Part shown: in pieces, positions 25,218 through 59,343 of the stretch
Layout: each line of letters begins with the position of its first letter
How positions within the stretch are numbered: position 1 is the stretch's first letter
Origin: Salipiger sp. H15
GTDB taxonomy: Bacteria; Pseudomonadota; Alphaproteobacteria; Rhodobacterales; Rhodobacteraceae
DNA: 64,000 nt
Assembly: GCF_040409955.1 (NCBI RefSeq)
Contig: NZ_CP123385.1
Span: 248,001-312,000 of the forward strand
Direction of reading: 5' to 3'
The notes under the pieces: generated by a model
What the model saw: only the letters and a program-made list of their open reading frames with translations
What the model was told of the DNA's origin: nothing
The model's database searches: none
Translations under genes and position numbers: made by a program

Positions 25218-25249
25218 CGACTTTCTCCTCCTCCATGTGGGTGTAGGTG

Positions 25250-26461: not shown

Positions 26462-28239
26462 GTCCCGGCCCGGTGGAAGGCGTGGAATTTCGACTCGCGC
26501 CCGGTCAGCTCGGCGTAGCTGCCCTGTTCCAGCACCCGGCCCGCGCCGATCAGGTAGATCAGGTCGCACCCCCGCACCGAGCTCAGCCGGTGCGCCACGA
26601 TCACCACGGTTGTCCGGCCGCGCAGCCCCTGCACGGCGGCGGTCAGCTCGGCCTCGCTGATCGTGTCGAGCGCCGAGGTCGACTCGTCGAGCACCAGCAG
26701 CGCCGGGTCGCGAAAGACCGCCCGGGCGATGCCGATGCGCTGGCGCTGGCCGACCGAGAGGCTCTGGCCGCGCTCGCCAAGCGGCGTCTCGTAGCCCTCG
26801 GGCAGCTCGGCGATCAGCCCGTCCAGCCCGGCAAAGCTGCCGGCGCGGCGCAGCGCCTCCGCCGCATCGCCCGCGGGCGCGAAGCCGAAACGGATGTTGT
26901 CGCCGATCGTGCCCTCGATCATGCAGCTGTCCTGCGGCACATAGGCCACCGAGCGCCGCCAGCGCGCGAGATTGCCCGCCTCGATGCGGGTGCCGTCGAC
27001 GTAGAGCCCGCCGGTATCGGGGCGGATGAGCCCGGTCATCATGTCGAGGATGGTGCTCTTGCCCGCGCCGGTGGCGCCGACCAGCCCGACGATCTGCCCC
27101 GCCGGGACCCTCAGGTCGAGGTCCCGGATGAGCTGGCCCCGGCCGTCGGGATAATCGTAGCCGACCCCGCGCAGCTCCAGCGCCTCCCGGAGCGGCAGCC
27201 CCTCGCCCGGCAGCGCGTCCGACAGGCCCAGCCCCTCGACCGCGGCAAGGTCGGCGTGCAGCTCGTCCACCGCCGGAAGATCGCCGCGCAGCGCCGCGGC
27301 CGAGGCATAGATGCGTTGCAGCGCCGGAAAGAGCCGCGCCGCGGCAAAGGCGTAGAGCGCGACGACGGGCAGCGCGCTGCTGCCCTCGCCCTGTTCCACC
27401 AGCGTCCAGACCACCAGCAGGATCATCGTGCCGAAGGTCAGCACCTCGAGCACCGACTTCGGCACGTCGCGCAGCAGGTCGGCGGTGGTCGTCGCCTCGG
27501 CACGGCGGCGGAAGGCGCTCTCGAAGCGGTCGAGATAGCTCTGCTCCATGCCGTAGAGCTTGACCTCGCGCGAGCCCGCCAGCGCCTCGCTCAGAAGCCG
27601 CGCGGTCTCGCGCGTGGCGCGCATGCGCTCGGCGCCGACCCGGCGCATCGGCCCGCGCACCGCGGCGAAGATCGCGCCGTAGCCGAGCCCCAGCAGCAGC
27701 CCCATCGTCAGCGCCGCGCGCGGCTCGACCACCACCAGCATGATCGCCAGCGAGGCCGCGGTGCTGACCCCGGTGAGCAGGCGCACGGCGTTCATCATCA
27801 CCCCGTTCACCACCCGCTCGACCTCGGACTGGATGTTGCTCACCAGCTCCGCCGAGTGCCGCCGCAGCCGCGTGTCGAGCGGCGCGCGCATGTAGCGCGA
27901 CACCAGCCGCGAGGCGAGGCTCACGCTCTGGCCCCGCACGAAACCGCGCAGGAAGGTATGGCCCCAGATGCGGAAGAGGATGGCCGCGGTCAGCATCCCG
28001 AGCGAGCCGAGCGCCAGCAGCACCAGGAACCCCGTCTCGCCCTCGATGCCGAGCGCGCCGCGCAGCGCCGCGAGCCGCGGGTTCTCGAGCGCCGCCTGCG
28101 GGCGCGCCGCGACCATCAGGAAGGGCGCTATAGACAGCACCGCCGCCATGTCGGCGAGCCCCATGCCGATGCTGACGGCAAACACCCGCCAGAGCCGGCG
28201 GCGGGCGCGGCTGTCGAGCAGGAAGAGGATGCGATCCAT
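26458..28239 (-). CDS. ABC exporter half-transporter, PglK-like lipid-linked oligosaccharide flippase
   Basis: A 593-residue protein with a six-helix exporter domain (about 15-310) fused to an ATPase (about 355-590). The N terminus (FLLDSRARRRLWRVF, then VLSIAPFLMVAARP) and the helix-2/3 region LRGFVRGQSVSLASRLVSRY resemble PglK, which flips lipid-linked oligosaccharides, more than peptide or drug exporters. No peptidase domain is present. ATPase motifs: Walker A GATGAGKST, Q-loop VPQDSCMIEGTI, signature LSVGQRQRIGIA, Walker B LLVLDESTSALD, H-loop IVAHRLS. It is first in the operon with the glycosyltransferase and radical SAM genes. Cargo assignment is an inference from similarity and neighbours. 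Confidence 0.88.
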   Translation of the reverse strand: MDRILFLLDSRARRRLWRVFAVSIGMGLADMAAVLSIAPFLMVAARPQAALENPRLAALRGALGIEGETGFLVLLALGSLGMLTAAILFRIWGHTFLRGFVRGQSVSLASRLVSRYMRAPLDTRLRRHSAELVSNIQSEVERVVNGVMMNAVRLLTGVSTAASLAIMLVVVEPRAALTMGLLLGLGYGAIFAAVRGPMRRVGAERMRATRETARLLSEALAGSREVKLYGMEQSYLDRFESAFRRRAEATTTADLLRDVPKSVLEVLTFGTMILLVVWTLVEQGEGSSALPVVALYAFAAARLFPALQRIYASAAALRGDLPAVDELHADLAAVEGLGLSDALPGEGLPLREALELRGVGYDYPDGRGQLIRDLDLRVPAGQIVGLVGATGAGKSTILDMMTGLIRPDTGGLYVDGTRIEAGNLARWRRSVAYVPQDSCMIEGTIGDNIRFGFAPAGDAAEALRRAGSFAGLDGLIAELPEGYETPLGERGQSLSVGQRQRIGIARAVFRDPALLVLDESTSALDTISEAELTAAVQGLRGRTTVVIVAHRLSSVRGCDLIYLIGAGRVLEQGSYAELTGRESKFHAFHRAGT

Positions 28240-31749: not shown

Positions 31750-34155
31750 GTGACCGAGGTCGCAAAACGCCCCCGTCCGTCCGCCCTGCTCTGGGCCTTC
31801 GGACTTCTTCTCGCCGTCGTCGGGCTCGTGCTTGCCGCCGGCGGCATCTACCTCATCAGCCTTGGCGGGTCGTGGTACTACGGTATCGCGGGCCTGCTCA
31901 TGCTCGTCTCCGCCGTCCTGACCTTCCGGGGCCGGGCCGCGGGGCTCACGCTCTTCCTCGCGCTCTTCGCGGGCACCGTGGTCTGGTCGTTCTGGGAGGC
32001 CGGGCTTGACTTCTGGGCCCTGGTGCCGCGCCTCGTCGCGCCGGTCTTCATGGCGGCGCTGGCGCTGCTGCTGCTGCCCGCCGCCCGTCGCCACGAAGGC
32101 AAGCCCGCCTGCGCCCTCGGCCTGCGGCTCGGCGGCCTTGGCATGCTGGCCGTCTTCGCCGGCTTCCTCGGCCTGATGTTCGTGCCGCACAACGTGGTGC
32201 AGAACGACCTGCCGATCGTGCCGGGCGAGGTTTCGGCCGCGACCGAGACCTCCGGCGAGAGCTGGCTCTCCTGGGGTAAGACCACCGAGGGCACGCGCTT
32301 CTCGACCGCCGGGCAGATCACCCCGGAGAACGTTGGCGAGCTCGAGGTCGCCTGGACCGCGCACACCGGCTTCGTCGCCGACCAGAGCAAGGATCTGCAG
32401 GACCAGAACACCCCGCTCTACGTCGACGGCACGCTCTACCAGTGCGCCGCCGCCTCGCAGGTCACCGCGCTTGACGGCACCACCGGCGAGATCAAGTGGC
32501 AGTTCGACCCCGAGGGCGCCTCGCCGCTGTGGAAGCGCTGCCGGACCATGGGCTATTACGAGCCGCCCGCCGGCGACGACTGCGGCCCGCGCATCGTGAT
32601 GACCACCACCGACATGCGCCTCATCTCGCTCAAGGCCGAGACCGGCGAGGTGTGCGAGAGCTTCGGCGAGGGCGGCACGGTCGACCTTGCCGAGGGGATG
32701 ACCCAGCTGACGCCGCAGAGCGATCTCGACGGCGCCGCCGAGGTCTCGCCGCTGCCGGGCTTCCTCGCCCAGACCACCGGGCCGTTCATCGGCCGGGGCA
32801 AGATCGTGCTCGGCGGCTGGGTCGCCGACAACATCAGCCGCGGCGAGCCCTCGGGCGTCGTGCGCGCCTTCAACGCGCTCACCGGCGAGCTCGAATGGGC
32901 CTGGGACCTCGGCAATCCCGAGATCACCAAGCTGCCGCCGGAAGGCGAAGGCTACACCAAGGGCACGCCCAACGTCTGGAGCGGCATCGCCATCGACGAG
33001 GAACTGGGCATGGTCTACCTGCCCATGGGCAACGCCACGCCGGACTACTACGGCGGCGCGCGGCGCGACATCGACGACGAGTATGGCGCGGCGCTGGTGG
33101 CGCTCAACCTCGACGACGGCCGCGAAGCCTGGCACTTCAGCACCGTGCACCATGACATCTGGGACTACGACCTGCCGGCGCAGCCCGCGCTCGCGGACAT
33201 CCCCGACGGCAAGGGCGGCACCGACAAGGCGATCATCCAGGTCACCAAGCGCGGCCAGATCTTCGTGCTCGACCGGCGCACCGGCACGCCGCTGAAGAAG
33301 GTCGTCGAGAAACCCGTGCCCGCCTCGGACGGCAAGATCGAGGGCGAGTACTACTCGGAGACCCAGCCCTATTCGGTCGAGATGCCCACCATCGCGGCGG
33401 ATCACCTGACCGAGGCCTCGATGTGGGGCGCGACGCCGATCGACCAGATGCTCTGCCGCATCATGTTCAGGAGCTACCGCTACGAGGGCGAGTTCACCAC
33501 GCAGTCGACCGACAAGACGCTGATGAACCCGGGCAACGGCGGCGGCTTCAACTGGGCCTCGGTCTCCTACGACCAGACGCGCAACCGCATGATGGTCGTC
33601 GACATGCGCATGCCCACGGTGAACTGGCTGATCCCGCGCGACGAGTACGGCGACACCAGCGAGCTGGTGATGAACTCGCACGGCCGCTCGCCGCAGTTCG
33701 GCCTGCCCTACGGCCACGACCTGCACAACTTCATGTCGCCGCTCGGCGTGCCCTGCATCACCCCGCCCTGGGGCATGGTCTCGGCCATCGACCTCGCGAC
33801 CGGGCAGATCGCCTGGCAGCAGCCGGCGGGCACCTCCGAGGACACGCCGCTCGGCACCCTCGGCAAGAGCCCCCTCAAGGCGCAGATCGGCATGCCGGGC
33901 ATGGCGGGCCTCGTCTCGACCAAGTCGGGCCTGTCGTTCCACTCGGGCACCCAGGACTACTACCTGCGCGCCTATGACACCGAGACCGGTGACATCCTGT
34001 GGAAGGGCCGCCTGCCCTCGGGCTCGCAGGCCGCGCCGATGACCTACATCGGCAAGGACGGCCGGCAGTACGTGGTGCTGACCGCCGGGGGCGCGCGGTA
34101 CAACCCGTTCGACCAGTCGGACTGGATCATCGCCTACGCCCTGCCGAAGAAGTGA
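31750..34155 (+). CDS. gcd: Membrane-bound PQQ-dependent glucose dehydrogenase (quinoprotein)
   Basis: An 801-residue quinoprotein. Residues 1-145 hold about five membrane helices, the ubiquinone-linked anchor. The periplasmic remainder is the eight-bladed PQQ propeller with tryptophan-docking repeats (ALDGTTGEIKWQFD, AFNALTGELEWAWDLG, AIDLATGQIAWQQPAG, AYDTETGDILWKG). NTPLYVDGTLYQCAA, GTPNVWSGIAIDEELGMVYL and HHDIWDYDLPAQPAL match Gcd. It oxidises glucose and other aldoses to lactones in the periplasm and reduces ubiquinone. Start is a GTG at 31750 with GGGAGA seven bases upstream. Its leader (31500-31749) is long and untranslated. No pqq biosynthesis genes are in the window. Confidence 0.92.
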   Translation: MTEVAKRPRPSALLWAFGLLLAVVGLVLAAGGIYLISLGGSWYYGIAGLLMLVSAVLTFRGRAAGLTLFLALFAGTVVWSFWEAGLDFWALVPRLVAPVFMAALALLLLPAARRHEGKPACALGLRLGGLGMLAVFAGFLGLMFVPHNVVQNDLPIVPGEVSAATETSGESWLSWGKTTEGTRFSTAGQITPENVGELEVAWTAHTGFVADQSKDLQDQNTPLYVDGTLYQCAAASQVTALDGTTGEIKWQFDPEGASPLWKRCRTMGYYEPPAGDDCGPRIVMTTTDMRLISLKAETGEVCESFGEGGTVDLAEGMTQLTPQSDLDGAAEVSPLPGFLAQTTGPFIGRGKIVLGGWVADNISRGEPSGVVRAFNALTGELEWAWDLGNPEITKLPPEGEGYTKGTPNVWSGIAIDEELGMVYLPMGNATPDYYGGARRDIDDEYGAALVALNLDDGREAWHFSTVHHDIWDYDLPAQPALADIPDGKGGTDKAIIQVTKRGQIFVLDRRTGTPLKKVVEKPVPASDGKIEGEYYSETQPYSVEMPTIAADHLTEASMWGATPIDQMLCRIMFRSYRYEGEFTTQSTDKTLMNPGNGGGFNWASVSYDQTRNRMMVVDMRMPTVNWLIPRDEYGDTSELVMNSHGRSPQFGLPYGHDLHNFMSPLGVPCITPPWGMVSAIDLATGQIAWQQPAGTSEDTPLGTLGKSPLKAQIGMPGMAGLVSTKSGLSFHSGTQDYYLRAYDTETGDILWKGRLPSGSQAAPMTYIGKDGRQYVVLTAGGARYNPFDQSDWIIAYALPKK

Positions 34156-45768: not shown

Positions 45769-48700
45769 TCAGACCGCGAGAAGCTCGTCGATGTAGACAT
45801 ACTCCAGGAAGTCGATGCGCAGTGGCTCGCCGGCGTTCGGGGTGCCCGACAGTTCCAGCACGTCGCCGGTCTCGATCGCGATCCCGGTGATCTCGCGCTC
45901 GGCATAGGAGGTGGCGTTGACGATCGCCGCCCCGGCATCCGCGTCCCAGATGAAGTCGTCGATCACCTCGCCGTTGAGCAACACCGAAAGCTGCGACTGC
46001 CCGTCGGACTCGTCGTAGTAGCCGAGCTTGAGGGTGTAGACCCCCGACGCCGCGGTGAAGCCGAAGCTTGCCACATGCGCCCCCGACCCGGTCGCCTGGA
46101 CGAACTGCCCCCCAGAGGCGTGGCCGTTGTTCGTCACCTGCAGGCCGGTGAGGTCCATGGACTCGGCCTCGACCCGCACCGGCTCGGCATCCGGCGGCGG
46201 CGTGACCGGGACCGCGACGGTGAAGCCGGTGAGCGCCCCGTTCGCCGCAACCGCATTGCCGTTCGTGTCGAAGACCTGGTTGCCGAGCAGCGCGACGCTG
46301 TAGCTGCCGTTGTCGCCCGCATCCCAGCTGCCGCCCGGCGCTGCGACCGTATAGGTTGCGCTTCGCGGCGTGCCGTCGCCTCCGATGTCGAGCGTCACCC
46401 CGGTCACCGTCAGCGCCCCGCCCGGGCCGCTGACCGAGATGTCGGCGGTGCCGATGGTCGAGGCGTCCACCGCCACGTTGTCGGCATAGGTGACCGTCAC
46501 CGTGGTCGAGACGCCGCCGCCGGAGGCGATGCCCGCGGCGCTGGCCGAGGCCACCGTGGGTGCCTGCAGATCCTCGACCGGCCCGCCGCCCGAGGTCGGC
46601 GTGAAGTCGAGGTAGTCGATCCGCAGCGGCTCGCCGCCGTCCGGCGCGCCGGCAAAGGCCACCACGTCGCCCGCCGACAGTGCCACGCCGGCAAAGGTGT
46701 ACTCGGCGAAGGACGAGGCGTTGACGATGGCGTCCCCGGCGTTCTTGTTCCAGGTGAAGGTCTCGCGCACCGCGCCGTTGACCAGCAGGCTGAGCACCGC
46801 GTTGCCGTCGGATTCGTCGAAATGCCCGACGGTGATCTCGTAGGTGCCCGCCGTCTCGGCGAAGGTCATCGACGCGACGTGCGCCCCCGACCCCGTCGCC
46901 TGGATGAGCTGCCTGCCCGAGGCATGGGCATTGTTGCTCACCTGGAAGCCCTCGAGCGCGAGGTCCTCGGCCTCGACCCGGAACGGATCGCCCGTCGGCG
47001 GCGGCGTGGTCGGCACCGCGACGCTGAAGCTGGTCAGCGCGACGTTCGCCGCCACCGGGTTGCCGCTGGTGTCGACCACCTGCCCGCCCAGAAGCGCAAC
47101 CGTGTAGGTGCCGTTGTCGCCGGTGTCCCAGCTGCCGCCGGGAGCCGCCACGGTGTAGGTCGCGCTGCGCGGCGTGCCGTCGCTGCCGACGCTGAGGCTC
47201 ACCCCGGTCACCACCAGCGCGCCGCCCGGGCCGCTGACGGTGATGTCGTTCACCCCTATGCTCGAGGCGTCGATGGCCACGTTGTCGGCATAGGTGACCG
47301 TCACCGTGGTCGAGCTGCCGCCGGCGCTGGCGATGCTGGCCGCGCTGGCCGCGCTGACCGTCGGCGCCTGCAGGTCCTCGGGATCGCCGCCGCCCGAGGT
47401 CGGCGTGAAGTCGAGGTAGTCGACCCGCAGCGGCTCGCCACCGTTCGGCGTGCCCGAGACCGAGACCCTGTCCCCCGCCGCGAGGGTGATCGCGTCGAAG
47501 GTGAACTCGGAGAAGGAGGAGGCGTCGGCGATGGCGCCGCCCGCGTCCCTGTTCCAGACAAAGCTCTGCATCACCTCGCCGTTGCGCAGCAGGCTCAGCA
47601 CCGACTGGCCGTCGGATTCGTCGAAGTGCCCGACGGTGATCGCGTAGGCGCCCGCCGCGGCGGCGAAGGTCATGCCCGCCTCGTGCGTGCCGCTGCCCGT
47701 GGCCTGGATGAACCGGTCGCCCGAGGCCTGGCCGTTGTTGACCACCTGGAAGCCCTGCAGGTCGAGGGTCTCGGCCTCGATGCGGAACGGATCGCCGGCG
47801 GGTGGCGGGGTGTCCGGCACCGAGACGTTGAAGCTGGCCAGCGCGGCGTTCGCCGCGACCGGGTTGCCGCTGGTGTCGGTCACCTGGCCTCCGAGCAGCG
47901 CGACCGTGTAGGCGCCGTTGTCGGCGCTGTCCCAGCTGCCGCCGGGCGCGGCGAGGGTATAGGTCACGCTGCGCGGGCTGCCGTTGCCCGCCGCGCTCAG
48001 GCTGAAGCCAGTCACCTGGAGCGCGCCGTTCGGACCGGTCACCGAGATGTCGCCGGTGCCGAAGCTCGAGGCGTCGAGCGCCACGTCGTCGCTGAAGGTG
48101 ATGGTGACCGTGGCGCTTGCCCCGCCCGCGGCGGTGATGTCCGCCGCGACCACCGCCCCCACGAGCGGTGCGACCGTGTCCCCCGGTTCGGGATCAACCG
48201 TGACCTGCTCGAGCGTGAAGGAACGGAAGTCGAGGATGTAGCCGTTCGACGCCGGCGCCCCGTCGAAGGTGAAGCGCAGCGTCTGCAGCCCCGCCCCGAG
48301 CGTGACGGTGGTTGCCGCCGTCGCGGCGAAGACCGTGCCGTTGAACGAGGTCGAGCTGCCGTTGCTGTCGGGCAGCGCGAAGGTGGCGAGCGGCGTGCCG
48401 TCCTCCAGCGTCGCGGTGACCGTGTTGCCGCCGATCGGGGTCTTGGCGTTGACGCTGAGCGCGTAGCTGCCCGCCTGCGCCACGTCGATCGTGTACTCGA
48501 CCCATTCGCCGGGCTGCACGTAGCCGATGTCGTTGCTCGAGCCGACCAGCTCGACATCGGTGTCGGCGCGCAGCGGGTGCGAGCCGTCGCGGCCCGGGTC
48601 GTCGTTCCACGACACGTCCTGCCCGCCGTTGTCGAAATTCGCGGCGAGCACGGTCAGGCTGTCTTCCAGCACCGGCGCCGCGGGGCCCGGATAGGGCGTC

Positions 48701-51700
48701 TGCACCGGGGCCGGCGTGTTGTCCTGGTCGAAGAAGTCCGGCGTGCCGTCGCCGTCGCTGTCGGTCTGCAGCGCGTCGTTGATCCCGTCGGCATTCGCGT
48801 CCTCGGCGGCAGAGAGGTCGTAGCCCTGCACGTTGGTCACGAGGAACATGTGGTCGTTGTAGTCGAAGTTCGACCCGCCGGGGTAATCCTGGATGCCGAT
48901 GAAGGTGCCCTCGATGACGTTGCCCGCGGCGTCCTTCGCCTGGAAGAAGCGGATGTAGTGGCCCTCGTTCGGCGGCGTGATGCCGTAGGTGTCATCCGCC
49001 ACGTTGGCATCGGGATCGCTCCAGGCCGAGTAGGTCGGCTGGCCGTCCACCGTGACCCGGAGCCCGAAGGCCCCGTCGCGGTCGATGCTTGCCCGCGCCA
49101 CGCCCGGCTGCGCGCCCGGCCCCGCGACCAGCCCGTCCGGCAGGAGGGTCTGGTACTGGTTGTCGTCCTGCGCGTAGAGCTCGGTGAGCGCGCCGCTCGA
49201 GACGTCGTGCAGGCTCAGTCGGCTGGTGCCCGCGCTGAGGTAGGCGGCAAGCTGGATCACCTCGATCGGCCGGCTGTCGTCGAGCCGCTGCAGGTAGGGC
49301 AGCAGCACCTCGTCGCCCACCGTCTCGACGATGCCGCCGTTCGAGAGCAACCCCTGCGCCACGTCGGTCGAATAGCCGAAGGCCTGCACGATCTGCGCCA
49401 CGGTCGGCTCCTCGCCGCCCTCGGACTGGATCTGCGCCAGACCGGCGAGCGCGATCTCGCGGGTCCCGGCAGAGCTGCCGATGGTCAGCGTGCCCTCGTA
49501 GGCGGTGGCCTGGTTGTCGTCGGCGGGGTCGATGCCGATGAAGGTGACGGTCAGCTGCGCCGAGGCGCCGGGGGCGATCACCTGCCCCTCGGCAAGGCCG
49601 CTGATGGTGAAGGCCCCGGTGACCTCGAGATCGTCGATGCTGAGCCCGGCGATGCCGTCGTTGGTGATGGTGATCACCGCGCTGTCGCGGAAGGCCTGGT
49701 TGCCGTTCGCGGGGTTGTCGATACGCGAGAAGACCAGCCGGTCGTCGGCCGCGGCATCGTCGAGCCCCTCGATGGTGGCAACCGCGCCGTAATAGACCGG
49801 AGCGACGCCCTCGATGACGAACATGTTGTCGTTGTAGTCGTAGTTGATCCCCGTGTAGTCCATCACGCCGAGGAAGACGTTCTCGATGATCGCGCCATCC
49901 TCGTCCACGGCCTGGTACATCCGCACGGTGTAGCCGTCCGAGACCTCGTTGCCCTCGGGGTCGTAGACCTGCCCGTTCACCACCGTGTAGCCGGGGAACC
50001 GCGCGTCGAGGTCGGCCTGCGTCGGCGTGCCGGCGCCGGTCGGGTTGAGCCGCGGGTCGGTCGACTGGTTGTTGATCTCGATGCCGAAGAGATCGTTGCC
50101 CGCCCAGCCATCGGGAATGTCGGCCGCGGTGAACACCCGCGTCGCGAAGCTGTTGCTGCTGGCCAGCGGCAGCAGCGTCTGGTTGTTCGAGCTGATGTGG
50201 GTGGTCATGCCGACGTCGATGCCGCTGTCACCCGGCGCGTGGAAGCGGATCCCCGCCCCGGAGGGGCTGTGGAAGGCCGCGATCTGCGTGATCCGCGCCT
50301 CGGTCACCCCGTCGGCGATCCGCCAGTAGGGAGACAGCACCTCGGTCTCGTCCGAGGGGATGTAGAGGTCGTAGAAGTCCAGCACGCTGCCGCCGCCGCC
50401 CGAGGAATAGCTCAGCCCCTCGATCCGGTTGCCGAAGCCGAAGACCTCCCAGACCTCGTTGAGGTTGGGCTCCTGCCCGCCCTCGTCCTGCGACTGCCAG
50501 AAGCCCGCGAGGTCGACCGTGGCGACCGGGGTGTCGGCATCGTTGCTGCGGATGTCGAGCGCGCCCTTGAAGACGCCGCTGACGTTGCCGCTGCCCGAGG
50601 TATAGGCGGCGCGGTCGAAGAGCACCTGAACGTTGATCGACTGTCCCGCCGCCAGCGTCAGCCCGTAGAAGACGTCGGGATCGGCCAGTTCGAAGGGTCC
50701 GGTGATCGTCGCCTCGAGCACCTCGAGCGGCTCGGTGCCGGAGTTCGAGATGGTGACGGTGGCGCTCTCCTTGTAGTCGCGCGGGGTGCCGGCCACCGCG
50801 TCGGGATCGTCGATCCACGAGAAGTGCAGGCGGTTGTCGAAATAGGCCGGATCGTTGCTGCGGATCTCGATGTCGGCATTGTCGTTGCCCGGCGCCGGGC
50901 GCACGTCGAGATAGTCGAGCGCGCTGGCCCCGGCGGCGTCGGAGATCACCGTCAGCTTGTACTGCACGCCTGCGGCCAGTTCGACATAGGCGGTGGTCTC
51001 GCCCGCGTCGCCCTGCCCCGGGAAGCCGATGTCGCCGATCTCGACCGGCTGCGCGCCGTTGGCGCTGAGATAGACCGTCAGGCCCGCGCCATCGGGTGCC
51101 CCGGCGTTGGCCGCGAGGTCGAGCGCGTAGGTGTCGTCCGCCGCGACGGTGAAGTAGAACTCCACCTGCGTCGCGCCGAGCGTGCGGGTGGTGTCGTCGG
51201 TGGCCTCGAGCTCGATCCGCCCCTCGCCGTCGATCGCGGCATAGGCGGGTACGAAGCTGTCCACCGGCGCCTGCGAGACGCGCAGGTAGTCGATGTTGGC
51301 GCCGTTGGCGTCGGGCACGCTGATCGAGATCGTGTTGAGCCCGGCGGAAAGCGAGACCTGCGCGCTCTGCGGGCCCCAGACGTTCTCGGCCGCGGTGCTG
51401 TTCGGCTCGAAGGCGAGGATGCCCTGGTCGATGCCGTTGACGAAGAGCGAGGCGGGACGCGCGGCCTTGGTGGTGGCGAGCGCATAGAGGATGTCCATGC
51501 CGTAGATGCCCGCCTCGGTGACCGAGACCGTCCAGGTGATGCTCTGCGTGCCGGTGCCGTCGAAGTCGACAAACTCGCCGCCGCTCTGGTTGCGCTCGTC
51601 GGTGGCGATCACCGCGCCGTCGAGCACCGCGTGTTCCGCCTCGTACCTGGTGTAGGTGACGCCGCCGACGGACTCGCTGCCGTCGTTCGGCGCGGTGGGC

Positions 51701-54700
51701 AGGTTGGGCACCACGGCGACGCTGTCGATGTTGGGCCCGCCCGCCGCGGCAAGCTGCTCGATGATCACCGTGTTCGGCCCCTCGACGAGGTCGAGGGTGA
51801 TCTCGAAGCTCTGCCAGGTGGCGAAGCTGCCGGTGTCGGTCGAGGCGATCTGCACGGTCTGGATGCCCGCGTGGATGGCGACGGGCCGCGGCGTGCCGGA
51901 GCCGTTCGCCATGCGGAAGCTCAGCGTGTAGGACCCCGCGCTCGGCGCGTCGTAGACGAAGGACGCCTTGTCCTCGGCCCCGCCGTTCATGTCGAGATAG
52001 CCGGCGCCGTCGTAGCCGTCGTTCATGCCGTCGCCGTTGGCGTCGTAGGTGCCACCGGGCGTCTCGTGTGTGGCGGGATCGCTCAGCAACCGGATCAGCG
52101 TGCCGCCATCCGTGTCGAGCACGGTGAAGGCGCTGGCGTCGATGAAATTGCCGCTGGCGCTGTCGCCGGGGGTGAAGGCCGTGCTGGTCGAGGCGGTGTT
52201 GCCGTCGTCGTCGAAGACCTGCAGCGTGGCCGAGACCTGCTCGGTCCCGCCGCTGAGATCGACGCTGAAGCGGTTCTGCGCATCGAGGCTCACCGCCTGC
52301 GCCGGGCCGCCGTCGAAGCTGATCGTCAGGCTCTGGATGTCCGGGTCGAGCCCGATCACCTGGAAGAGCACGTTGGCCGGATCGGCGGCGCTGACCACCA
52401 GCAGCGCGAGATTGCCGCCCTCGTCGGCGGTGGTGTCCTCGATCGCCCCGCCCGGCGCCGCGTCGAGCCGGATGATCTGGCTGACGCCGTTGGCGCGGTT
52501 GAGCGTGAGCATGTAGAGCCGCCCGTCGGCGCCCTCGATCACGTCGAGCGGGTCGACGTAGTTGATCTCGTTGCCGTCGAGGTCGGTGAGGATGAAATCC
52601 GCCGCCGGGGTGCCGTCCTCGTTGAGCAGCACCGCCCGCAGGTTGTCGCCCGAGGAGTACTGGGTGAAGATCACCGCGTGCTGCAGCGAGGTGCCGAAGA
52701 CGCCGCTCATGTACTCGATGGCGCCGTTGGGCGAACGGTTGTTGCCGAGGTTGTAGGCGCCTTCGAGGTCGTAGTCGGGATCGGGATCCGTGCCGACCGG
52801 GTAGTTGCCGACCTGGTTCGGATCGGTGCCGCTGGTCGGGTTGGCGCCGTTGAGGATGTACTTGTCGCGCAGCGGGTTCGGGTGGCCGTAATAGCCGCCC
52901 TCGACCATGCGGAAGAGGTAGTCGGCCTGCAGCCCGACGTTGGTGATCGCCTCGTTCTCGGGCGTCGAGGGATCGTCGGGCACGTTGCCGCCCGCCGCAG
53001 AGCCGTTGGTCGGCACGTAGAGATAGCCGTTGCTGTGCCAGACGAGGTCATAGCCGTTGCGGTTGCCCTCGGCGAAGATGCTGAGCACCGCATCCTCGGC
53101 GAAGGGGTCGTAGTAGCGTACGATCAGCTCGGACGAGGCATCCTCGCCGGTGCGCACCTCGGCCACGCCGTTCTCGTCGAAATGCAGGTAGTTGCCGACA
53201 TAGATGCCGTCGGTGATCGCGATGCCGCCGTTCTTGAGGTCATTGTCCGTGTCGGCGTAGCGCCGGTTCTGCCCGTCCGCCGGCAGCGGCTCGGTCGAGA
53301 CGTCGAAGCCGCCTTCCGGGGCCTCGCGCGAGCGGTCGATCTCGAGGATGGCGGCGTTGAGCAGCCGCTCGGGGCGGTTGCCCCAGGCCGAGTCCGGCGC
53401 GCCCATGGCCGAGTTCGAGCCCTGCGTGAGGTAGAGCAGGTATTGCGGCGCGTCGCCGCCCTCGACGAAGTCGGGGTTGAGCCGGAACTCGAGGCTGTTG
53501 GTCACGTGGTCGCCGTTCGAGCGCGGCAGGCCGGTGATGTAGGTCTCGATGGTCGCGTCCTCGAGCGAGCCGCCGTCGCCGAGCGTCACCTTCGAGATGC
53601 GGCCCGAGAAGTCCGGCACCGCGTTCGACCGGCCGTTGAGCGGGATCGGGTAGTTGTCCGAGATCCAGATGGTGTTCTCGTCCTCGGGGTCGAAGGCGAT
53701 GCCGATGATCCCGCGGGTGCCCTCGCCCGGCACGACGAAGTCGCCGCCGGGGAACCAGACCTCCTTGCTGGCCTGATCCAGCGAGCCGTCGGCATTCACC
53801 GCCCAGCGGGTGATCGAGCCGGTGATCGAGGTGACATAGAGGAACTGCTTGTCGGGCGACATCTCGATCGAGGTGTAGCTCTCGCCCTGCATCGGGTTCG
53901 AATTGACCTCGACCGTGTCGCTGAAGGCCACCTCGCGCGCCTCGACCAGCGGCGCGGCGCCGGTGGTGAAGGTGGTGGTGAACTTCTGGAACTCACGGGT
54001 CAGCGCCGCGCTGTCGTCGTTGTCGCCGCGGTCGCGGAAGCCGTCGATGACCACGGTGTAGCTGGTGTAGGGCTTGAGGTCGGTCACCGGGGCGATGGTG
54101 ACGGAGTCGAAACCGCCGGTGGTGTTGGCGTTGTAGGCCACCTCCTGCCCGGTCAGCGTCTCGTAGATGCGGATCGAGCCGTCCTCTAGGCTTTCGAGCA
54201 GCACGCCGCCGCGCCCGTCCACCACGCTCACGCCCAGCACAATGTCGGAGGTCGGGTCGATGTCGGTGGGCAGATCGCCGCCGTGGATGCCGAGGTCCAC
54301 CTCACCGCCGGTCGAGACCGCGCGCGGGTTGATGAAGAAGGCATAGTCGTCCGGCGCCTCGTTGCCGTCCTCCGGGGTGAGGTCGGGCAGCGCGCGGATC
54401 TCGAGATACTGCATCTCGGTGATCGTCCCGCCCTGCGCCGAGAGCGTCAGGTGCCCGTCCTGCACATGCGCCAGCGTGGTCAGCAGCTCGGTCTTGAAGG
54501 CCGAGGTGCTGGTCCATTCCGTCGCCAGCGCCCCCTCGATGAAGAGCCGGTTGTGGCTGTCGTTGGCGCCGCCGGTATCGCCGACCGAGACCGTCACCTC
54601 GTACCAGCCGTTGTCGAGCTCGATCTCCCAGGCGGTGCGGCCCGGGAAGGTGCCCTCGAGGTCGAAATGCGCGTAGCCGGTCAGGCGCGGGTCCATGGCG

Positions 54701-57700
54701 TTGAAGTTCACGCTGAGCTTGTCGGCCGGAAGCGTGCCGTCGTCGGGCAGCGTGCCGGTGCCGGTGCGCACGTTGACCGCGATCGCCGGGTAGGCCGAGC
54801 CGGTGGGCGTGTTGGTGGTGCCGTCGGCATCGAGCGCCGAGGCCTCGGTGACGAAGCCGTAGGTCAGCCCGTTCGACTGCAGCCCATAGTCGGTGAAGTT
54901 GCCGACGAGGTAGTCGGGATCGACCGGCGTGCTGCCGTCCTGGAAGTTGATGCGGATGGTCTCGCGCACGCCCGGCTCGGAGGGCGTCGGCGGCGGCGTC
55001 ACGTCGTTGAAGATCGTCACGCTGTCGATGTTGGGCCCGTTCGCGACGGTGTTGGCCAGCGTCACGGTGTTGGCGCCCGCCGCCAGAGTCACCTCGACCT
55101 CGACGTCGAGCCAGACGTCCCAGTCGGGGGTCATGCCGAAGGGCACGATCACCGTCTGGCCGTTGACCTGCATCTCCATCGGGCGGTCGGGGGTGGTGGG
55201 CGAGCCGTTGGCGTAGCGGAAGCTCATCGTGTAGGTGCCCGCCTCGGGGACGCTCACGTCGAACTGCACCGCGTCTCCGATGTCGCCACCCATGTCGAGA
55301 TAGCCGGTGCCGGTGTAGTTCGACCAGATGCCCTCGGGCCGGTCGGCGGTGACGCCCTCGGGGTTCGAGGCGTCGCGGACCTGGGTCGAGAGCGGGTCGC
55401 CCTCGCCCGTGCCGGTGTCGTCGAGGATGAGGATCGAGCCGTCGCGGTTCTCGAGCTGGATCGTGGTCGAGAAGGCCTCGGGCGCGTCGCCGATGGCGAT
55501 CAACGCCGAGGTCTCGGCGGTGTTCCCGGTCCCGTCGGTCACCCGGAAGACCAGCGCCAGCGAGGTCTCGGCGGCAAAGGCCGAGAGGTCGAGCGTGACA
55601 GTGCCGCCCGAGGGCACGATCGGCGCGAAGCTGGCGCCGCCGTCGGTCGAGACCTCTAAGAGCACGATGTCGGGATCGACGCCGGCGAGCGCGAACTCGA
55701 CCGCGCCGAGCGCGGCGGGGTCGATGGTCGACGCCTCGGGCGCGGCGGCGAGGTCATTGCCCTCGTCGGCGGTGGTGTCGGGCTCGGGGATCGGGCCGGT
55801 TCCGGCCTCGGTGATCTCGATCCGGTCGACGTTGGGGCCCGAGGTGGCCCCCGCCGGGATCGCCAGCGCAAGCGTGTTGTCGCCCGCGACCAGCGTCACG
55901 GTGGTGGTCTGGAAGAGCCAGTGGTCGAAGCCCTCCTCGGCGCCGGAGCCGTCGGGATCGGTGGTGACGAAGGGCAGCGACACCGCCCCGCCGCCATTCA
56001 CCGACAGGTCGAGCGGGCGCGCGCCGTTCGAGGCGTAGCGCACGTTCAGGTCATAGCTGCCGCCGGCGGCGACGGTCACGGTGAAGGTGACCGCATCGCC
56101 GGGCGTGTCGCCGAAGTCGAGGTAGCCGGTGCCGCTGAAGTCCGGCCGCAACCCGTTGACGAGGTTGACGTTGCTCTCGGGGTTGTCGGCATCGCGGATC
56201 TGCGTGTCGTTGGTGTTCGCGTCCACATCGAGGATGGTGAGCTGCGCGAGGGTCTCGTCCTCGGCCTCGATGACGATGGGCTCGAAGGTTGCGCCGGGAT
56301 CGGTGACGGCGATGACGAAGGTCTGGCTGGACTGCTGGCCGGTCTCGTCGAAGGCGGTGACCACCACCTCGACCGTGGGCTCGGTGGCGAAGTCGAGGCT
56401 CTGGTTGGCCAGCAGGGTCAGCTGGTCGTCGCCGTCGATCTGGAAGCGCGGATCATCGACGCTGAACGAGACCGCCGTGCCCTCGGGATCGACCGCCGAG
56501 ACCGTGCCGATGATCGCGCCCGCGACGCCTGAGCCGACGCTCAGCGAGGTGATCTGCGGCAGCGAGGGCGCCTCGTCGACGTCGAGCGTGGTGATGGTGA
56601 GCGTCGTGGTGGTGGACTCGTTCGCGGCATCGGTGGCGGTGACCGCCACCTGCACGCTCGGCGTGGTCTCGAAATCGAGCGACTCCCCGTCCTTGAGCTT
56701 CAGCGCGCCGCCGACGACCTCGAAGTCCGAGGCCGGATCGACGCTGAAGGTGATCGCGGCGCTGTCGCCGTCCGGATCGACCGCCGAGAGCGTGCCGATC
56801 ACTGCACCCGCGGCGTTCTCGGCCACCGCGCTCGCGCTCAGCGCGATGGAATTGGGCTGCGTCGCCTCGATCACGTCGGTGACGGTGACCGAGATGTCCT
56901 GCGAGGTGACGAGCACGCCGTCGCTGGTGCTCAGCGTGACCTCGTAGACGTTGTCGCCGTCAAGGTCCGCCGGGGCCTCGAAATCGGGGGCGCTGGCAAA
57001 GCTGAGCGTGCCGGTGGCCTCGTCGAACACGAAGGCCGCGGCATCGTCGCCGGTCAGCTCGTAGCTGAGCGCGTCGCCCTCGCCATCCGCGGCGGTGAGG
57101 CCGGTCGCGACCTCGGTGGCGTTCTCGGCCATCGTCACGTCGCCCGCCGTCCCGTCGAATTCGGGCGCGGAGTTGACCGGCGGGAAGACCGCCGCCTCGC
57201 CCGTGCTGGTGATCGCGATGGCGTCGATGTTGGGTCCGTTGCTGAAGCCCGCGGGGATCGCCAGAGTCAGGCTGTTCTCGCCCGCCTCGAGCGCGATCTG
57301 CACCGGCGCGCGCACGGCCCAGTTGGCAAAGCCGCTGCGCTCGGGGAAGCCGAGGACGCCGCCCACCGCATCAGTGCCGTTGACCAGCACCGCCAGCGGC
57401 CGGTCTGTCGCGGCCGCGTCCACCGAGGCGTAGCGGATATGCAGGTCGTAGAGCCCGGCCTCGGCCACGGTCACGGTCCAGGTGATGGTTTCGTCGCCAT
57501 CCGCCCCGTCGCCGCCGAAGTCGGTGTAGCCGAAGCCGCTGTAGCCCACACGCAGGCTGTAGGCGTCGATCGGGCCGTCGCTGCCGGTCTCGGCGGTCGT
57601 GACGTCGTTCTGCACGCGATGGAAGGTTGCCGCGCCCTCGGGGATCACCCCGCTCTCGCTTTGCAGCACGATCGGCGCGATGCTCGGCGAGGGCAGTTCC

Positions 57701-59343
57701 GGCTCGACGTCGGTGACGGTGATCGAGAGATCCTGCGTCACGCTGCGCACACCGTCCGAGACCTCGACCGTCACCTCGAAGACGCCGTCGAGATCGGCAT
57801 CACTTGCGAGCTCGAAGTCCGCCGGGGCGTTCAGCGTCAGGAGACCCGAGGTGCTGATCGAGACCTTGTCCGCGTCGGGGCCGGAAAGCTGGTAGCTCAA
57901 CACGTCGGGCGCAAGATCGGCAAGCTCGCGGTCATCCGCCAGCACCTGCCCGATCTCGGTCGAATTCTCGGCGATCTCGAAGCCCGCGGCGCTCAGGATC
58001 TCGGGCGCGGCGAAGCTGACCGCCGTGCCCGGCAGCGCGACGGCGACCGCGTCGATGTTGGGCGCGACCGAGGCCGCGTCCTGGATCAGCACCACCTGGT
58101 GCGTGCCATCGCCCACGGTGACGGTGAAGCTCTGCGTGCCCCAGGTGCTCCACCCGCCGGTGCGGCTGTCGGCCAGCGTGCCGGCGCCGGCACCGTCGAC
58201 CTCGACCGAGAGCGGGCGCAGCGCCGTGGAGCCGTTGGCATAGCGCAGGGTGATCTCGTAGGTGCCGGCGGGCGCGTCGAAGGAGAAGGCGATCTTGGGC
58301 CCGGCGCTGCCGTTGATGTCAATGTAGCCGCTGCCGCTGTAGTCGTGGCGCAGGCCGAACTCGTCGAACTCGTTGCCCTCGCTCTCGGGGCCGGTGTTGT
58401 CCCCCGCCCCCGAGAAGACCGCGCCGTCCTCGGGGTTGGAAAGCTCGGTGCGCTTGAGCGACGTGCCGCCCGCGTCGACGATCTCGAGCGCCTCGACGCC
58501 GAGATAGACCGGCGCGAAGGGCGCGATGACCGTGACGGTGACCGCCTGCTCGGTGGTGCCGCCCTCGGGATCGGTGGCGGAGACGAGGAGCGCGTAGCTC
58601 GGCTGGGTGGCGGATTCGGCCGGGGAGAGCAGGCGCAGCGCGCCGGTCGCGGGGTCGATCTCGAAGGCGGCCGCGTCGGCACCGCCGGTGATCGCGTAGG
58701 TCATCGCCTCGCGCGCGGGCGCGTCGGCCGAAGTGTCGTTGGCGATGTCGCTGGCCAGCACCGAGCCGACCGCGGTCTCGTTCTCGACGACCGTCAGGCT
58801 TGCCTCGCTCTCGAAGGTCGGCAGCGAGAAGTTCGGCACCACGCCGACGTCGTGGATGGCGATGGCGTCGATGTTCGGCGCCCCGGCGGCGCTGTCCTGG
58901 TTGACGACGAGCGCGTGCTCGCCGCCGCTGGCGAGGGTGATGGTGACCGTGCGGGTCTCCCAGCCGTAGAAGGCGCCGGTGTCGGTGTCTTCGATCACGT
59001 AGCTCACCCCGTCGACGGTGAGCGAGATCGGCCGGGGATCGTTGCCGCCGTTCGACAGGCGCAGGGTGATCTCGTAGGTGCCGGCCTCGGCGGTGAAGCT
59101 GGTCGAGGCCTGGGCGCCGGTGTCGCTGCCGTTGATGTCGAGATAGCCCCAGTCATCCAGGTCGCCGCTGCCGGTATAGCCGGGGCGCAGCCCGTAGGCG
59201 TCGTAGCTCGGCGCGCCGGTGTTGGCGGCGCCGGTGACCTCGACGTTGCTGCTGCGCGTGCGGATGAGGTTCGCGGGGGTCGCCTCGCCGACCACGTCGA
59301 GCACGAAATCCTCGCCTTGGATGAAAATGGTTTCGATCGGCAT
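45769..59343 (-). CDS. Giant (4524-residue) extracellular mosaic protein: CBM-like, cadherin-like and sorbosone-dehydrogenase-like propeller domains
   Basis: One uninterrupted 13.6-kb gene. There is no N-terminal signal peptide, no transmembrane helix and no cysteine that I can find, and the protein is strongly acidic. Approximate order: five CBM6/35-like beta-sandwich modules alternating with cadherin/Ig-like domains (1-1450); malectin-like module (1460-1650); Ig-like (1665-1795); glucose/sorbosone-dehydrogenase-like propeller (1805-2295: GIIGIAFDPEDENTIWISD, HVTNSLEFRLNPDF, GNRNGYDLVWHSNGYLYV); further CBM-like modules (2300-2820). Then two ASH-like domains each ending in a DUF4114-like YDYNDNMF or FDYNDHMF motif (2825-3500); a thrombospondin-3-like calcium stretch (DSDGDGTPDFFDQDN); a clear CBM6 (3560-3715); and three tandem 267-residue repeats (3722-4510). 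Probably secreted by a type I system and calcium-dependent. GGGAGAG precedes the ATG. Role inferred: polysaccharide binding or adhesion, perhaps with sugar oxidation. Confidence 0.88.
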   Translation of the reverse strand: MPIETIFIQGEDFVLDVVGEATPANLIRTRSSNVEVTGAANTGAPSYDAYGLRPGYTGSGDLDDWGYLDINGSDTGAQASTSFTAEAGTYEITLRLSNGGNDPRPISLTVDGVSYVIEDTDTGAFYGWETRTVTITLASGGEHALVVNQDSAAGAPNIDAIAIHDVGVVPNFSLPTFESEASLTVVENETAVGSVLASDIANDTSADAPAREAMTYAITGGADAAAFEIDPATGALRLLSPAESATQPSYALLVSATDPEGGTTEQAVTVTVIAPFAPVYLGVEALEIVDAGGTSLKRTELSNPEDGAVFSGAGDNTGPESEGNEFDEFGLRHDYSGSGYIDINGSAGPKIAFSFDAPAGTYEITLRYANGSTALRPLSVEVDGAGAGTLADSRTGGWSTWGTQSFTVTVGDGTHQVVLIQDAASVAPNIDAVAVALPGTAVSFAAPEILSAAGFEIAENSTEIGQVLADDRELADLAPDVLSYQLSGPDADKVSISTSGLLTLNAPADFELASDADLDGVFEVTVEVSDGVRSVTQDLSITVTDVEPELPSPSIAPIVLQSESGVIPEGAATFHRVQNDVTTAETGSDGPIDAYSLRVGYSGFGYTDFGGDGADGDETITWTVTVAEAGLYDLHIRYASVDAAATDRPLAVLVNGTDAVGGVLGFPERSGFANWAVRAPVQIALEAGENSLTLAIPAGFSNGPNIDAIAITSTGEAAVFPPVNSAPEFDGTAGDVTMAENATEVATGLTAADGEGDALSYELTGDDAAAFVFDEATGTLSFASAPDFEAPADLDGDNVYEVTLSTSDGVLVTSQDISVTVTDVIEATQPNSIALSASAVAENAAGAVIGTLSAVDPDGDSAAITFSVDPASDFEVVGGALKLKDGESLDFETTPSVQVAVTATDAANESTTTTLTITTLDVDEAPSLPQITSLSVGSGVAGAIIGTVSAVDPEGTAVSFSVDDPRFQIDGDDQLTLLANQSLDFATEPTVEVVVTAFDETGQQSSQTFVIAVTDPGATFEPIVIEAEDETLAQLTILDVDANTNDTQIRDADNPESNVNLVNGLRPDFSGTGYLDFGDTPGDAVTFTVTVAAGGSYDLNVRYASNGARPLDLSVNGGGAVSLPFVTTDPDGSGAEEGFDHWLFQTTTVTLVAGDNTLALAIPAGATSGPNVDRIEITEAGTGPIPEPDTTADEGNDLAAAPEASTIDPAALGAVEFALAGVDPDIVLLEVSTDGGASFAPIVPSGGTVTLDLSAFAAETSLALVFRVTDGTGNTAETSALIAIGDAPEAFSTTIQLENRDGSILILDDTGTGEGDPLSTQVRDASNPEGVTADRPEGIWSNYTGTGYLDMGGDIGDAVQFDVSVPEAGTYTMSFRYANGSPTTPDRPMEMQVNGQTVIVPFGMTPDWDVWLDVEVEVTLAAGANTVTLANTVANGPNIDSVTIFNDVTPPPTPSEPGVRETIRINFQDGSTPVDPDYLVGNFTDYGLQSNGLTYGFVTEASALDADGTTNTPTGSAYPAIAVNVRTGTGTLPDDGTLPADKLSVNFNAMDPRLTGYAHFDLEGTFPGRTAWEIELDNGWYEVTVSVGDTGGANDSHNRLFIEGALATEWTSTSAFKTELLTTLAHVQDGHLTLSAQGGTITEMQYLEIRALPDLTPEDGNEAPDDYAFFINPRAVSTGGEVDLGIHGGDLPTDIDPTSDIVLGVSVVDGRGGVLLESLEDGSIRIYETLTGQEVAYNANTTGGFDSVTIAPVTDLKPYTSYTVVIDGFRDRGDNDDSAALTREFQKFTTTFTTGAAPLVEAREVAFSDTVEVNSNPMQGESYTSIEMSPDKQFLYVTSITGSITRWAVNADGSLDQASKEVWFPGGDFVVPGEGTRGIIGIAFDPEDENTIWISDNYPIPLNGRSNAVPDFSGRISKVTLGDGGSLEDATIETYITGLPRSNGDHVTNSLEFRLNPDFVEGGDAPQYLLYLTQGSNSAMGAPDSAWGNRPERLLNAAILEIDRSREAPEGGFDVSTEPLPADGQNRRYADTDNDLKNGGIAITDGIYVGNYLHFDENGVAEVRTGEDASSELIVRYYDPFAEDAVLSIFAEGNRNGYDLVWHSNGYLYVPTNGSAAGGNVPDDPSTPENEAITNVGLQADYLFRMVEGGYYGHPNPLRDKYILNGANPTSGTDPNQVGNYPVGTDPDPDYDLEGAYNLGNNRSPNGAIEYMSGVFGTSLQHAVIFTQYSSGDNLRAVLLNEDGTPAADFILTDLDGNEINYVDPLDVIEGADGRLYMLTLNRANGVSQIIRLDAAPGGAIEDTTADEGGNLALLVVSAADPANVLFQVIGLDPDIQSLTISFDGGPAQAVSLDAQNRFSVDLSGGTEQVSATLQVFDDDGNTASTSTAFTPGDSASGNFIDASAFTVLDTDGGTLIRLLSDPATHETPGGTYDANGDGMNDGYDGAGYLDMNGGAEDKASFVYDAPSAGSYTLSFRMANGSGTPRPVAIHAGIQTVQIASTDTGSFATWQSFEITLDLVEGPNTVIIEQLAAAGGPNIDSVAVVPNLPTAPNDGSESVGGVTYTRYEAEHAVLDGAVIATDERNQSGGEFVDFDGTGTQSITWTVSVTEAGIYGMDILYALATTKAARPASLFVNGIDQGILAFEPNSTAAENVWGPQSAQVSLSAGLNTISISVPDANGANIDYLRVSQAPVDSFVPAYAAIDGEGRIELEATDDTTRTLGATQVEFYFTVAADDTYALDLAANAGAPDGAGLTVYLSANGAQPVEIGDIGFPGQGDAGETTAYVELAAGVQYKLTVISDAAGASALDYLDVRPAPGNDNADIEIRSNDPAYFDNRLHFSWIDDPDAVAGTPRDYKESATVTISNSGTEPLEVLEATITGPFELADPDVFYGLTLAAGQSINVQVLFDRAAYTSGSGNVSGVFKGALDIRSNDADTPVATVDLAGFWQSQDEGGQEPNLNEVWEVFGFGNRIEGLSYSSGGGGSVLDFYDLYIPSDETEVLSPYWRIADGVTEARITQIAAFHSPSGAGIRFHAPGDSGIDVGMTTHISSNNQTLLPLASSNSFATRVFTAADIPDGWAGNDLFGIEINNQSTDPRLNPTGAGTPTQADLDARFPGYTVVNGQVYDPEGNEVSDGYTVRMYQAVDEDGAIIENVFLGVMDYTGINYDYNDNMFVIEGVAPVYYGAVATIEGLDDAAADDRLVFSRIDNPANGNQAFRDSAVITITNDGIAGLSIDDLEVTGAFTISGLAEGQVIAPGASAQLTVTFIGIDPADDNQATAYEGTLTIGSSAGTREIALAGLAQIQSEGGEEPTVAQIVQAFGYSTDVAQGLLSNGGIVETVGDEVLLPYLQRLDDSRPIEVIQLAAYLSAGTSRLSLHDVSSGALTELYAQDDNQYQTLLPDGLVAGPGAQPGVARASIDRDGAFGLRVTVDGQPTYSAWSDPDANVADDTYGITPPNEGHYIRFFQAKDAAGNVIEGTFIGIQDYPGGSNFDYNDHMFLVTNVQGYDLSAAEDANADGINDALQTDSDGDGTPDFFDQDNTPAPVQTPYPGPAAPVLEDSLTVLAANFDNGGQDVSWNDDPGRDGSHPLRADTDVELVGSSNDIGYVQPGEWVEYTIDVAQAGSYALSVNAKTPIGGNTVTATLEDGTPLATFALPDSNGSSTSFNGTVFAATAATTVTLGAGLQTLRFTFDGAPASNGYILDFRSFTLEQVTVDPEPGDTVAPLVGAVVAADITAAGGASATVTITFSDDVALDASSFGTGDISVTGPNGALQVTGFSLSAAGNGSPRSVTYTLAAPGGSWDSADNGAYTVALLGGQVTDTSGNPVAANAALASFNVSVPDTPPPAGDPFRIEAETLDLQGFQVVNNGQASGDRFIQATGSGTHEAGMTFAAAAGAYAITVGHFDESDGQSVLSLLRNGEVMQSFVWNRDAGGAIADASSFSEFTFDAITLAAGDRVSVSGTPNGGEPLRVDYLDFTPTSGGGDPEDLQAPTVSAASAASIASAGGSSTTVTVTYADNVAIDASSIGVNDITVSGPGGALVVTGVSLSVGSDGTPRSATYTVAAPGGSWDTGDNGTYTVALLGGQVVDTSGNPVAANVALTSFSVAVPTTPPPTGDPFRVEAEDLALEGFQVSNNAHASGRQLIQATGSGAHVASMTFAETAGTYEITVGHFDESDGNAVLSLLVNGAVRETFTWNKNAGDAIVNASSFAEYTFAGVALSAGDVVAFAGAPDGGEPLRIDYLDFTPTSGGGPVEDLQAPTVASASAAGIASGGGVSTTVTVTYADNVAVDASTIGTADISVSGPGGALTVTGVTLDIGGDGTPRSATYTVAAPGGSWDAGDNGSYSVALLGNQVFDTNGNAVAANGALTGFTVAVPVTPPPDAEPVRVEAESMDLTGLQVTNNGHASGGQFVQATGSGAHVASFGFTAASGVYTLKLGYYDESDGQSQLSVLLNGEVIDDFIWDADAGAAIVNATSYAEREITGIAIETGDVLELSGTPNAGEPLRIDFLEYVYIDELLAV
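45772..48180 (-). repeat. Three tandem ~800-base coding repeats at the 3' end of the giant gene
   Basis: Each unit encodes an Ig-like domain (TVTYADNVAIDAS... GGSWDTGDNGTYTVALLG) and a carbohydrate-binding-like domain beginning (I/V)EAE and ending GEPLR(I/V)D(Y/F)L(D/E). Units start near 48180, 47380 and 46570. They are strongly similar but not identical. Confidence 0.85.

Follow-up and report, generated by a model that had tools for sequence, protein, structure and literature searches.

In soluble glucose dehydrogenase (sGDH), a propeller enzyme dependent on pyrroloquinoline quinone (PQQ), His144 is the catalytic base, Arg228 and Asn229 stand at the quinone, and Arg406 and Arg408 lie at the PQQ carboxylates. 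A related propeller, that of HHIP, binds heparin. Propellers also occur in large proteins, and the available part of the report on BapP from Pseudoalteromonas tunicata describes one such protein, encoded beside a putative type I secretion system (T1SS), that can act as a calcium-dependent biofilm adhesin (PMC12153261). The present study concerns a 64,000-nucleotide stretch of the genome of Salipiger sp. H15 (6.1 Mb in 7 contigs; contig NZ_CP123385.1, positions 248,001 to 312,000; hereafter the window) and, within it, a single gene encoding a protein of 4524 residues, referred to as the giant. Embedded among its carbohydrate-binding modules (CBMs) and adhesin-type domains is a propeller of the sGDH/Asd fold that retains the residues of the sugar-oxidation centre and has lost the arginine pair with which sGDH grips PQQ. 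Tentatively, and at somewhat less than even confidence, the giant may be understood as a glycan-binding protein of modular build that is exported by type I secretion and resides in the matrix of a biofilm or exopolysaccharide, with a propeller that acts chemically on the glycan.

The propeller and its altered cofactor grip

The open frame of the giant runs stop-free from an ATG, and its codon-position GC is of the coding type and uniform along the gene, so that the single long frame proposed in the first-pass annotation, which was made from the sequence alone, is real. The protein contains no Cys, and its 648 Asp and Glu residues compare with 147 Lys and Arg. The Pfam profile GSDH (PF07995) has five other matches over its cut-off in the genome and none on the giant; it was dropped as proof of a propeller, and a family profile and fold comparison were therefore used. 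PF07995 is precomputed for some small propeller relatives. A search with the single sequence against PDB sequences gave nothing useful, while the family profile did match, and the comparison reveals a six-bladed sGDH-type propeller whose best fold neighbours are PQQ enzymes. The earlier suggestion of a propeller set among CBMs and adhesin-type modules was thereby borne out. Judged by its sequence, this propeller is a subfamily of its own within the sGDH/Asd fold.

Conservation was followed over 203 propellers: those of 104 giants, those of 98 small proteins and the query's own. Behind this set stand 239 relatives, drawn from the best 120 of 249 large proteins with the propeller (E ≤1e-3, the query's own protein included) and the best 120 of 589 shorter proteins found with the propeller alone; 204 of 241 proteins matched from before query position 30 to past position 480, and one of these (P0001) was removed as a duplicate of P0002. 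The equivalent of the catalytic His144 is present in all 203 sequences and that of Asp143 in 200. The Arg228-Asn229 pair, placed by a weak second stretch of the profile (3.0 bits) and a separate alignment to bacterial enzymes, is likewise universal (203/203). In P0002 numbering, His158, Arg153, Arg307 and Asn308 are invariant, and Arg58 (202), Gln186 (202), Arg202 (202), Arg89 (200) and Asp157 (200) are nearly so.

The PQQ-gripping Arg406 and Arg408 are replaced, mostly by Asp-Pro-Leu-Asp. At this place 202 of the 203 sequences have Pro, 193 have Leu and 202 have the final Asp; the first position varies more, with Asp in 139, Arg in 3 and, for the most part, Asn or Ser in the rest. Arg is thus found at the Arg406 column (residue 476) in 3/203 sequences and at the Arg408 column in 0/203, and five sequences have an Arg anywhere within the short stretch around residue 476. 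The R-x-R arrangement is present in all eight comparators (1c9u, 2g8s, 7cdy, 2ism, 3a9g, 3das, L001 and L002). The last of these is a GSDH paralogue of the same genome (C2:1250410-1251276; 213.8 bits) that keeps R-x-R and bears a Tyr (PLYNGGR) at the place of the His; since that Tyr stands where the other sequences read have His, the paralogue seems to be without the catalytic residue and, in sequence terms, to be a mirror image of the giant's propeller. A weak own-genome match, L005, reads G-R-P-V-G at the R-x-R place, with a single Arg; L003 and L004 were left unread.

Export and genomic context

An extracellular location, as first proposed, is supported because many relatives adjoin type I secretion genes. 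Among Halomonadaceae, the loci of 29 of the 38 carriers were checked, long and short forms together (the other nine were not fetched), and in 28 of these the genes for a T1SS ATP-binding cassette (ABC) protein and an HlyD protein are both located upstream of the propeller at a distance of no more than 20 kb, the exception (L127) having HlyD only. In the three loci whose gene order was mapped (G467, G797, G880), the ABC gene is divergently oriented, with 0.6-0.7 kb between it and the point where the propeller gene begins. Relatives are also borne on plasmids of Salipiger CCB-MM3, two rhizobia, Yoonia and Deinococcus, and T1SS genes adjoin the relative in three of the five, with ABC and HlyD directly upstream in Salipiger CCB-MM3 and directly downstream in the two rhizobia. 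Among the best 120 of the 249 large proteins, 98 are free of Cys and 119 have at most three. The giant itself, acidic and free of Cys, has a composition in keeping with a type I secretion substrate. No Sec signal was seen at the N-terminus of the giant, both ends having been read by eye, and an HlyD match longer than 300 residues was obtained, as a rough contrast, only at L024-L027 among the window and the compared loci. L027 is the T1SS of the same genome, on contig C1 (1455546), with ABC and HlyD proteins 93% and 83% identical to the Salipiger CCB-MM3 pair, and this unlinked system may export the giant.

Several observations weigh against such a route. No T1SS HlyD relative of the giant gene's own was found in the window, the next 13 kb or the congener stretches, and the own-genome ABC protein is not specific to carriers, because it has a counterpart in 20/20 genus genomes, carriers or not. 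The putative C-terminal signal, in a tail that appears to be of the kind found in type I secretion substrates, was only read by eye. For the Yoonia and Deinococcus plasmid relatives, the displayed stretch carries no gene annotated as T1SS. One of the 60 N-termini viewed (P0026) resembles a lipoprotein Sec signal, and some relatives therefore need not use the type I route; Streptomyces and similar hosts of the small forms cannot use a T1SS of the diderm type.

About 8 kb upstream of the start of the giant gene lies a row of genes for a MacB-like permease, a MacB/LolD-like ATPase and a MacA-like adaptor (L006, 9553-12847, minus strand), outside the stretch shared with congeners. The putative export set of BapP includes a LolD-like ATPase in the available part of its description (PMC12153261), and for this reason the MacA/MacB-like set could, by analogy, be considered a candidate alternative exporter of the giant. 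Elsewhere in the window, adjacent genes for a radical SAM protein with SPASM, a group 1 glycosyltransferase and an ABC exporter (24090-28239, minus strand) may form a peptide-modification and export set.

Function, cofactor and competing explanations

According to the tentatively favoured interpretation, the giant would be exported whole and unfolded by type I secretion and would fold outside the cell in calcium, where its CBM35 and CBM6 modules would grip polysaccharide and its cadherin/Ig modules would supply length. The propeller, set in a conserved core that would run from the YxiM-like module through Big_5, propeller, two CBMs and two ASH + DUF4114 units to a further CBM, would then act on or read the glycan so held, its sugar-oxidation centre (the His144, Arg228 and Asn229 equivalents) kept and its cofactor pocket remodelled. 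One Deinococcus relative found among exopolysaccharide genes provides supporting context. The propeller would most likely act chemically on the bound glycan through an unusual cofactor or an unusual grip on PQQ, and catalysis of some kind, including a PQQ-dependent one, is probable at about two in three. It is rather unlikely, at the more specific level, that these propellers represent a new, secreted class of carbohydrate-active enzyme in which the oxidation centre is kept, the conserved Pro-Leu-Asp and an invariant arginine-rich set replace the PQQ grip, and the cofactor either is not canonical PQQ or is gripped in a different way from it; were this so, matrix or algal polysaccharide would be modified where it is bound, by type I-secreted giants.

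The giant may instead only bind, its propeller being a catalytically dead sGDH fold whose arginine-rich pocket reads a (perhaps acidic) glycan, in the way that the HHIP propeller binds heparin, within an adhesin or matrix scaffold, an explanation considered somewhat unlikely. HHIP, a binder, also keeps the catalytic His in the part of the source available (PMC4133262), which counts against an enzymatic role in that a conserved His alone is therefore no proof of catalysis.

A true PQQ- and calcium-dependent aldose dehydrogenase, held on polysaccharide by its CBMs and loaded with PQQ outside the cell, is rather unlikely. It would accord with the PQQ enzymes as closest fold neighbours, with the retained His, Arg and Asn, and with a match to pqqE (profile TIGR02109) in 34 of 48 carrier genomes (32 over the cut-off), the own genome among them. 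AA12 enzymes, moreover, have lost PQQ ligands and still use PQQ in the parts of the sources available (PMC4133262, PMC6881789); the discoverers of AA12 there describe PQQ ligands as missing in CcSDH and HHIP, yet CcSDH as PQQ-dependent (PMC4133262), so that ligand loss is not decisive. The giant has nonetheless lost both Arg406 and Arg408, whereas AA12, in the portion of its description available, retains the equivalent bacterial Arg (Arg621; PMC6881789). The pqqE gene was unmatched in 14 of the 48 carriers, including single-contig genomes (e.g. G467, G811, G881). Among Halomonadaceae, where matches were counted at E 1e-60, it was found in 26 of 38 carriers (two below the cut-off) and unmatched in 12, against 11 matches among 20 tested of 113 non-carriers, giving no significant association (Fisher p 0.39, uncorrected for kinship). 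In the genus, pqqE exceeds the cut-off in 17 of 20 genomes, six of the seven carriers among these; it was found in both Roseivivax carriers and unmatched in Rubellimicrobium. Because the Arg pair is replaced and pqqE goes unmatched in 14 of the 48 carriers, canonical PQQ dependence is not supported by the sequences and is left at about one in four, although the propeller could still use external PQQ. Of the cell-surface sugar-binding or oxidising unit originally envisaged, the extracellular place and the sGDH/Asd fold are supported, and PQQ dependence as then stated is not.

The explanation that separate, ordinary proteins were joined by an error in sequencing or assembly merits virtually no weight: nothing in its favour was found, the codon-position GC is uniform, and independent long relatives with the same architecture already refute it.

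The window also encodes a PQQ-type β-propeller dehydrogenase of the glucose/ethanol/alcohol type (31750-34155, plus strand; PF01011, E 4.4e-209), about 12 kb from the end of the giant gene and in a genome that has pqqE; its propeller is unlike that of the giant.

If the propeller is catalytic, bacteria would export an enzyme-bearing matrix protein with a chemistry outside GSDH and AA12 annotation; if it only binds, it would be a bacterial counterpart of HHIP, a dehydrogenase fold turned glycan receptor.

Relatives and distribution

The best 120 of the 249 large proteins derive from Alloyangia/Salipiger, Roseivivax, Mesorhizobium, Methylobacterium, Halomonas/Vreelandella, Salinicola, a Myxococcota bin and others, Alloyangia and Salipiger being nearest at the giant's locus; members mostly bear the name 'carbohydrate-binding protein' or none. 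The best 120 of the 589 shorter proteins include Nostoc, Deinococcus, Streptomyces and other members, many with Big_5. The family is widespread and its occurrence patchy, with the propeller in 7/20 genus genomes (own included), 1/385 class genomes (own only), 3/398 phylum genomes (own included) and 38/151 Halomonadaceae genomes, about a quarter of those sampled, along with scattered carriers in Roseobacteraceae and Rhizobiaceae. Among the 61 genomes of the genus search, G027 was the eighth to match, with weak partial hits only (E 3.8e-10). No synteny with congeners was found by blastn (pieces >300 bases, E 1e-20) between a 77-kb stretch and the relatives' stretches: the matching pieces are limited to the gene itself or at most 70 bases beyond its end, and the congeners' surroundings differ.

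On the plasmid of Yoonia sp. SS1-5 (L067, 59-14154), a shorter relative has Tn3 transposase and recombinase genes with identical protein accessions on both sides, an arrangement reminiscent of a composite transposon. An NPCBM-annotated relative lies within an exopolysaccharide synthesis cluster on the Deinococcus KNUC1210 plasmid (L068). On the Rhizobium CC-CFT758 plasmid (L025, 11749-26920), the giant takes the form of three consecutive annotated genes followed by T1SS genes, representing either a split gene or a real three-protein form.

Full-text searches of the literature found no description of this propeller family. The first-pass view that the architecture is not a known one thus holds for the literature, and is qualified by the existence of 249 large propeller proteins; among the named ones of the best 120, many are called 'carbohydrate-binding protein'. 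All the parts are of known kinds, and what is undescribed, as far as the searches go, is the way they are combined and the changed cofactor site.

Domain architecture

Run both on the full-length protein and on segments of it, Pfam recognizes CBM_35, CBM_6, cadherin and Golvesin_C domains and, more weakly, Big_5, Big_13, DUF4114 and HYDIN/ASH (Table 1); the profile search of the full protein proposed at the outset accordingly gave CBM and cadherin matches over the giant and none to GSDH. The same runs left RTX nonapeptide repeats (PF00353), a mark of RTX/LapA-type adhesins, unmatched in the giant, a profile present in some relatives (e.g. P0008, P0009), and NCBIfam found no match on the protein. 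Models built from the giant's own CBM-like stretches yielded seven modules of a first type, four of a second and one weak stretch, the 11 modules being the seeds themselves and the weak stretch a non-seed. The first ASH + DUF4114-like unit was called by eye from repetition. The module first described as malectin-like agrees with a weak likeness to the YxiM galactose-binding domain before Big_5; for this module, residues 1-51 of model 2 have a predicted local distance difference test score (pLDDT) below 50. Big_5 is a frequent partner of the propeller, and PF13205 is precomputed for many small relatives.

Compared with seven relatives, the propeller (52-83% identity) and the ASH/DUF4114 block (48-77%; over 354 residues only in P0069) are the best conserved long parts. 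Among all modules the propeller ranks first or at most 7 points below the leading one: in five of the seven it is surpassed, by 1-7 points, by individual CBMs, by Big_5 or by the ASH/DUF4114 block. Between genera, the three repeat pairs at the C-terminus vary and are poorly conserved, at 28-31% identity and unmatched in one of the seven. Variable binding arms around a conserved core would fit a target glycan that differs between hosts.

Table 1. Features of the giant gene and its product, with positions in the window.
Feature	Residues	Position	Strand	Basis
Whole giant gene	4524 aa	45769..59343	(-)	
CBM35/6-like module 1	7-164	58852..59325	(-)	own-CBM model, seeded
Cadherin domain	175-272	58528..58821	(-)	PF00028
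CBM35/6-like module 2	280-436	58036..58506	(-)	PF03422 337-433, PF18099 340-420, own-CBM model
CBM-like module 3	568-712	57208..57642	(-)	Golvesin_C-type match, own-CBM model
Cadherin/Ig block	715-1020	56284..57201	(-)	PF00028 in piece 55801-57600
CBM35/6-like module 4	1026-1178	55810..56268	(-)	PF16990, PF03422, PF03944, own-CBM model
CBM35/6-like module 5	1318-1445	55009..55392	(-)	PF03422 8.7e-8, PF16990 2.1e-7, own-CBM model
YxiM/malectin-like galactose-binding module	1500-1662	54358..54846	(-)	2o14 E 0.0054; PF21254 E 0.13
Big_5-type Ig domain	1664-1788	53980..54354	(-)	PF13205 E 0.0011
Six-bladed sGDH/Asd-fold propeller	1806-2296	52456..53928	(-)	family profile, fold comparison
Equivalent of sGDH Asp143-His144	Asp1945-His1946	53506..53511	(-)	aligned to P0002 Asp157-His158
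Equivalent of sGDH Arg228-Asn229	Arg2095-Asn2096	53056..53061	(-)	203/203
Asp-Pro-Leu-Asp at place of sGDH Arg406-Tyr-Arg408-Asp	2264-2267	52543..52554	(-)	alignment
CBM-like module 6	2399-2544	51712..52149	(-)	PF03422 1.5e-5, own-CBM model
CBM35 module 7	2565-2690	51274..51651	(-)	PF16990 (its best stretch), own-CBM model
Weak CBM-like stretch	2725-2814	50902..51171	(-)	iE 0.00027, non-seed
Two ASH + DUF4114-like units	2830-3500	48844..50856	(-)	PF22544 3220-3268, PF13448
CBM6 module 8	3575-3714	48202..48621	(-)	PF03422, own-CBM model
Three Ig + CBM-like repeat pairs	3720-4516	45796..48186	(-)	weak Pfam, own-CBM model
Acidic/hydrophobic C-terminal tail	ends D-E-L-L-A-V	45772..45831	(-)	by eye

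Comparison with known systems

Relative to sGDH (Acinetobacter, 1c9u/1cq1) and Asd (3a9g, 2g8s, 3das), the propeller of the giant differs in its replaced Arg406/Arg408, in escaping Pfam GSDH and in its setting within a 4524-residue CBM protein. The AA12 pyranose dehydrogenase CcPDH of Coprinopsis comprises AA8, AA12 and CBM1 domains, and AA12, in the part of its description available, contains three disulfides, is paired with a cytochrome and retains Arg621 (PMC6881789). In contrast, the giant has no Arg at the Arg621 place (via the alignment to bacterial enzymes) and no Cys, and displays many CBMs and T1SS-linked relatives. Of the AA12-type PQQ ligands considered (Arg273, Arg430, Arg621 and His560), the residue aligned to sGDH Arg228, which equals AA12 Arg430, is present in the giant, again as mapped via bacterial enzymes. 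HHIP is a eukaryotic receptor; the giant family keeps the Arg-Asn pair and other residues over the 203 sequences, the pair of HHIP not having been compared. BapP, as portrayed in the available part of its report, is like the giant in being large, in joining cadherin/Big-type repeats to a propeller and, with respect to the giant's relatives, in a gene that adjoins a putative T1SS (PMC12153261). It differs, in the same part of that source, in its size of about 1,600 residues, its 226-residue, five-bladed, N-terminal propeller, its predicted Sec signal and the absence of any described CBM (PMC12153261), whereas the giant, with no Sec signal seen, bears a propeller of six blades at its centre.
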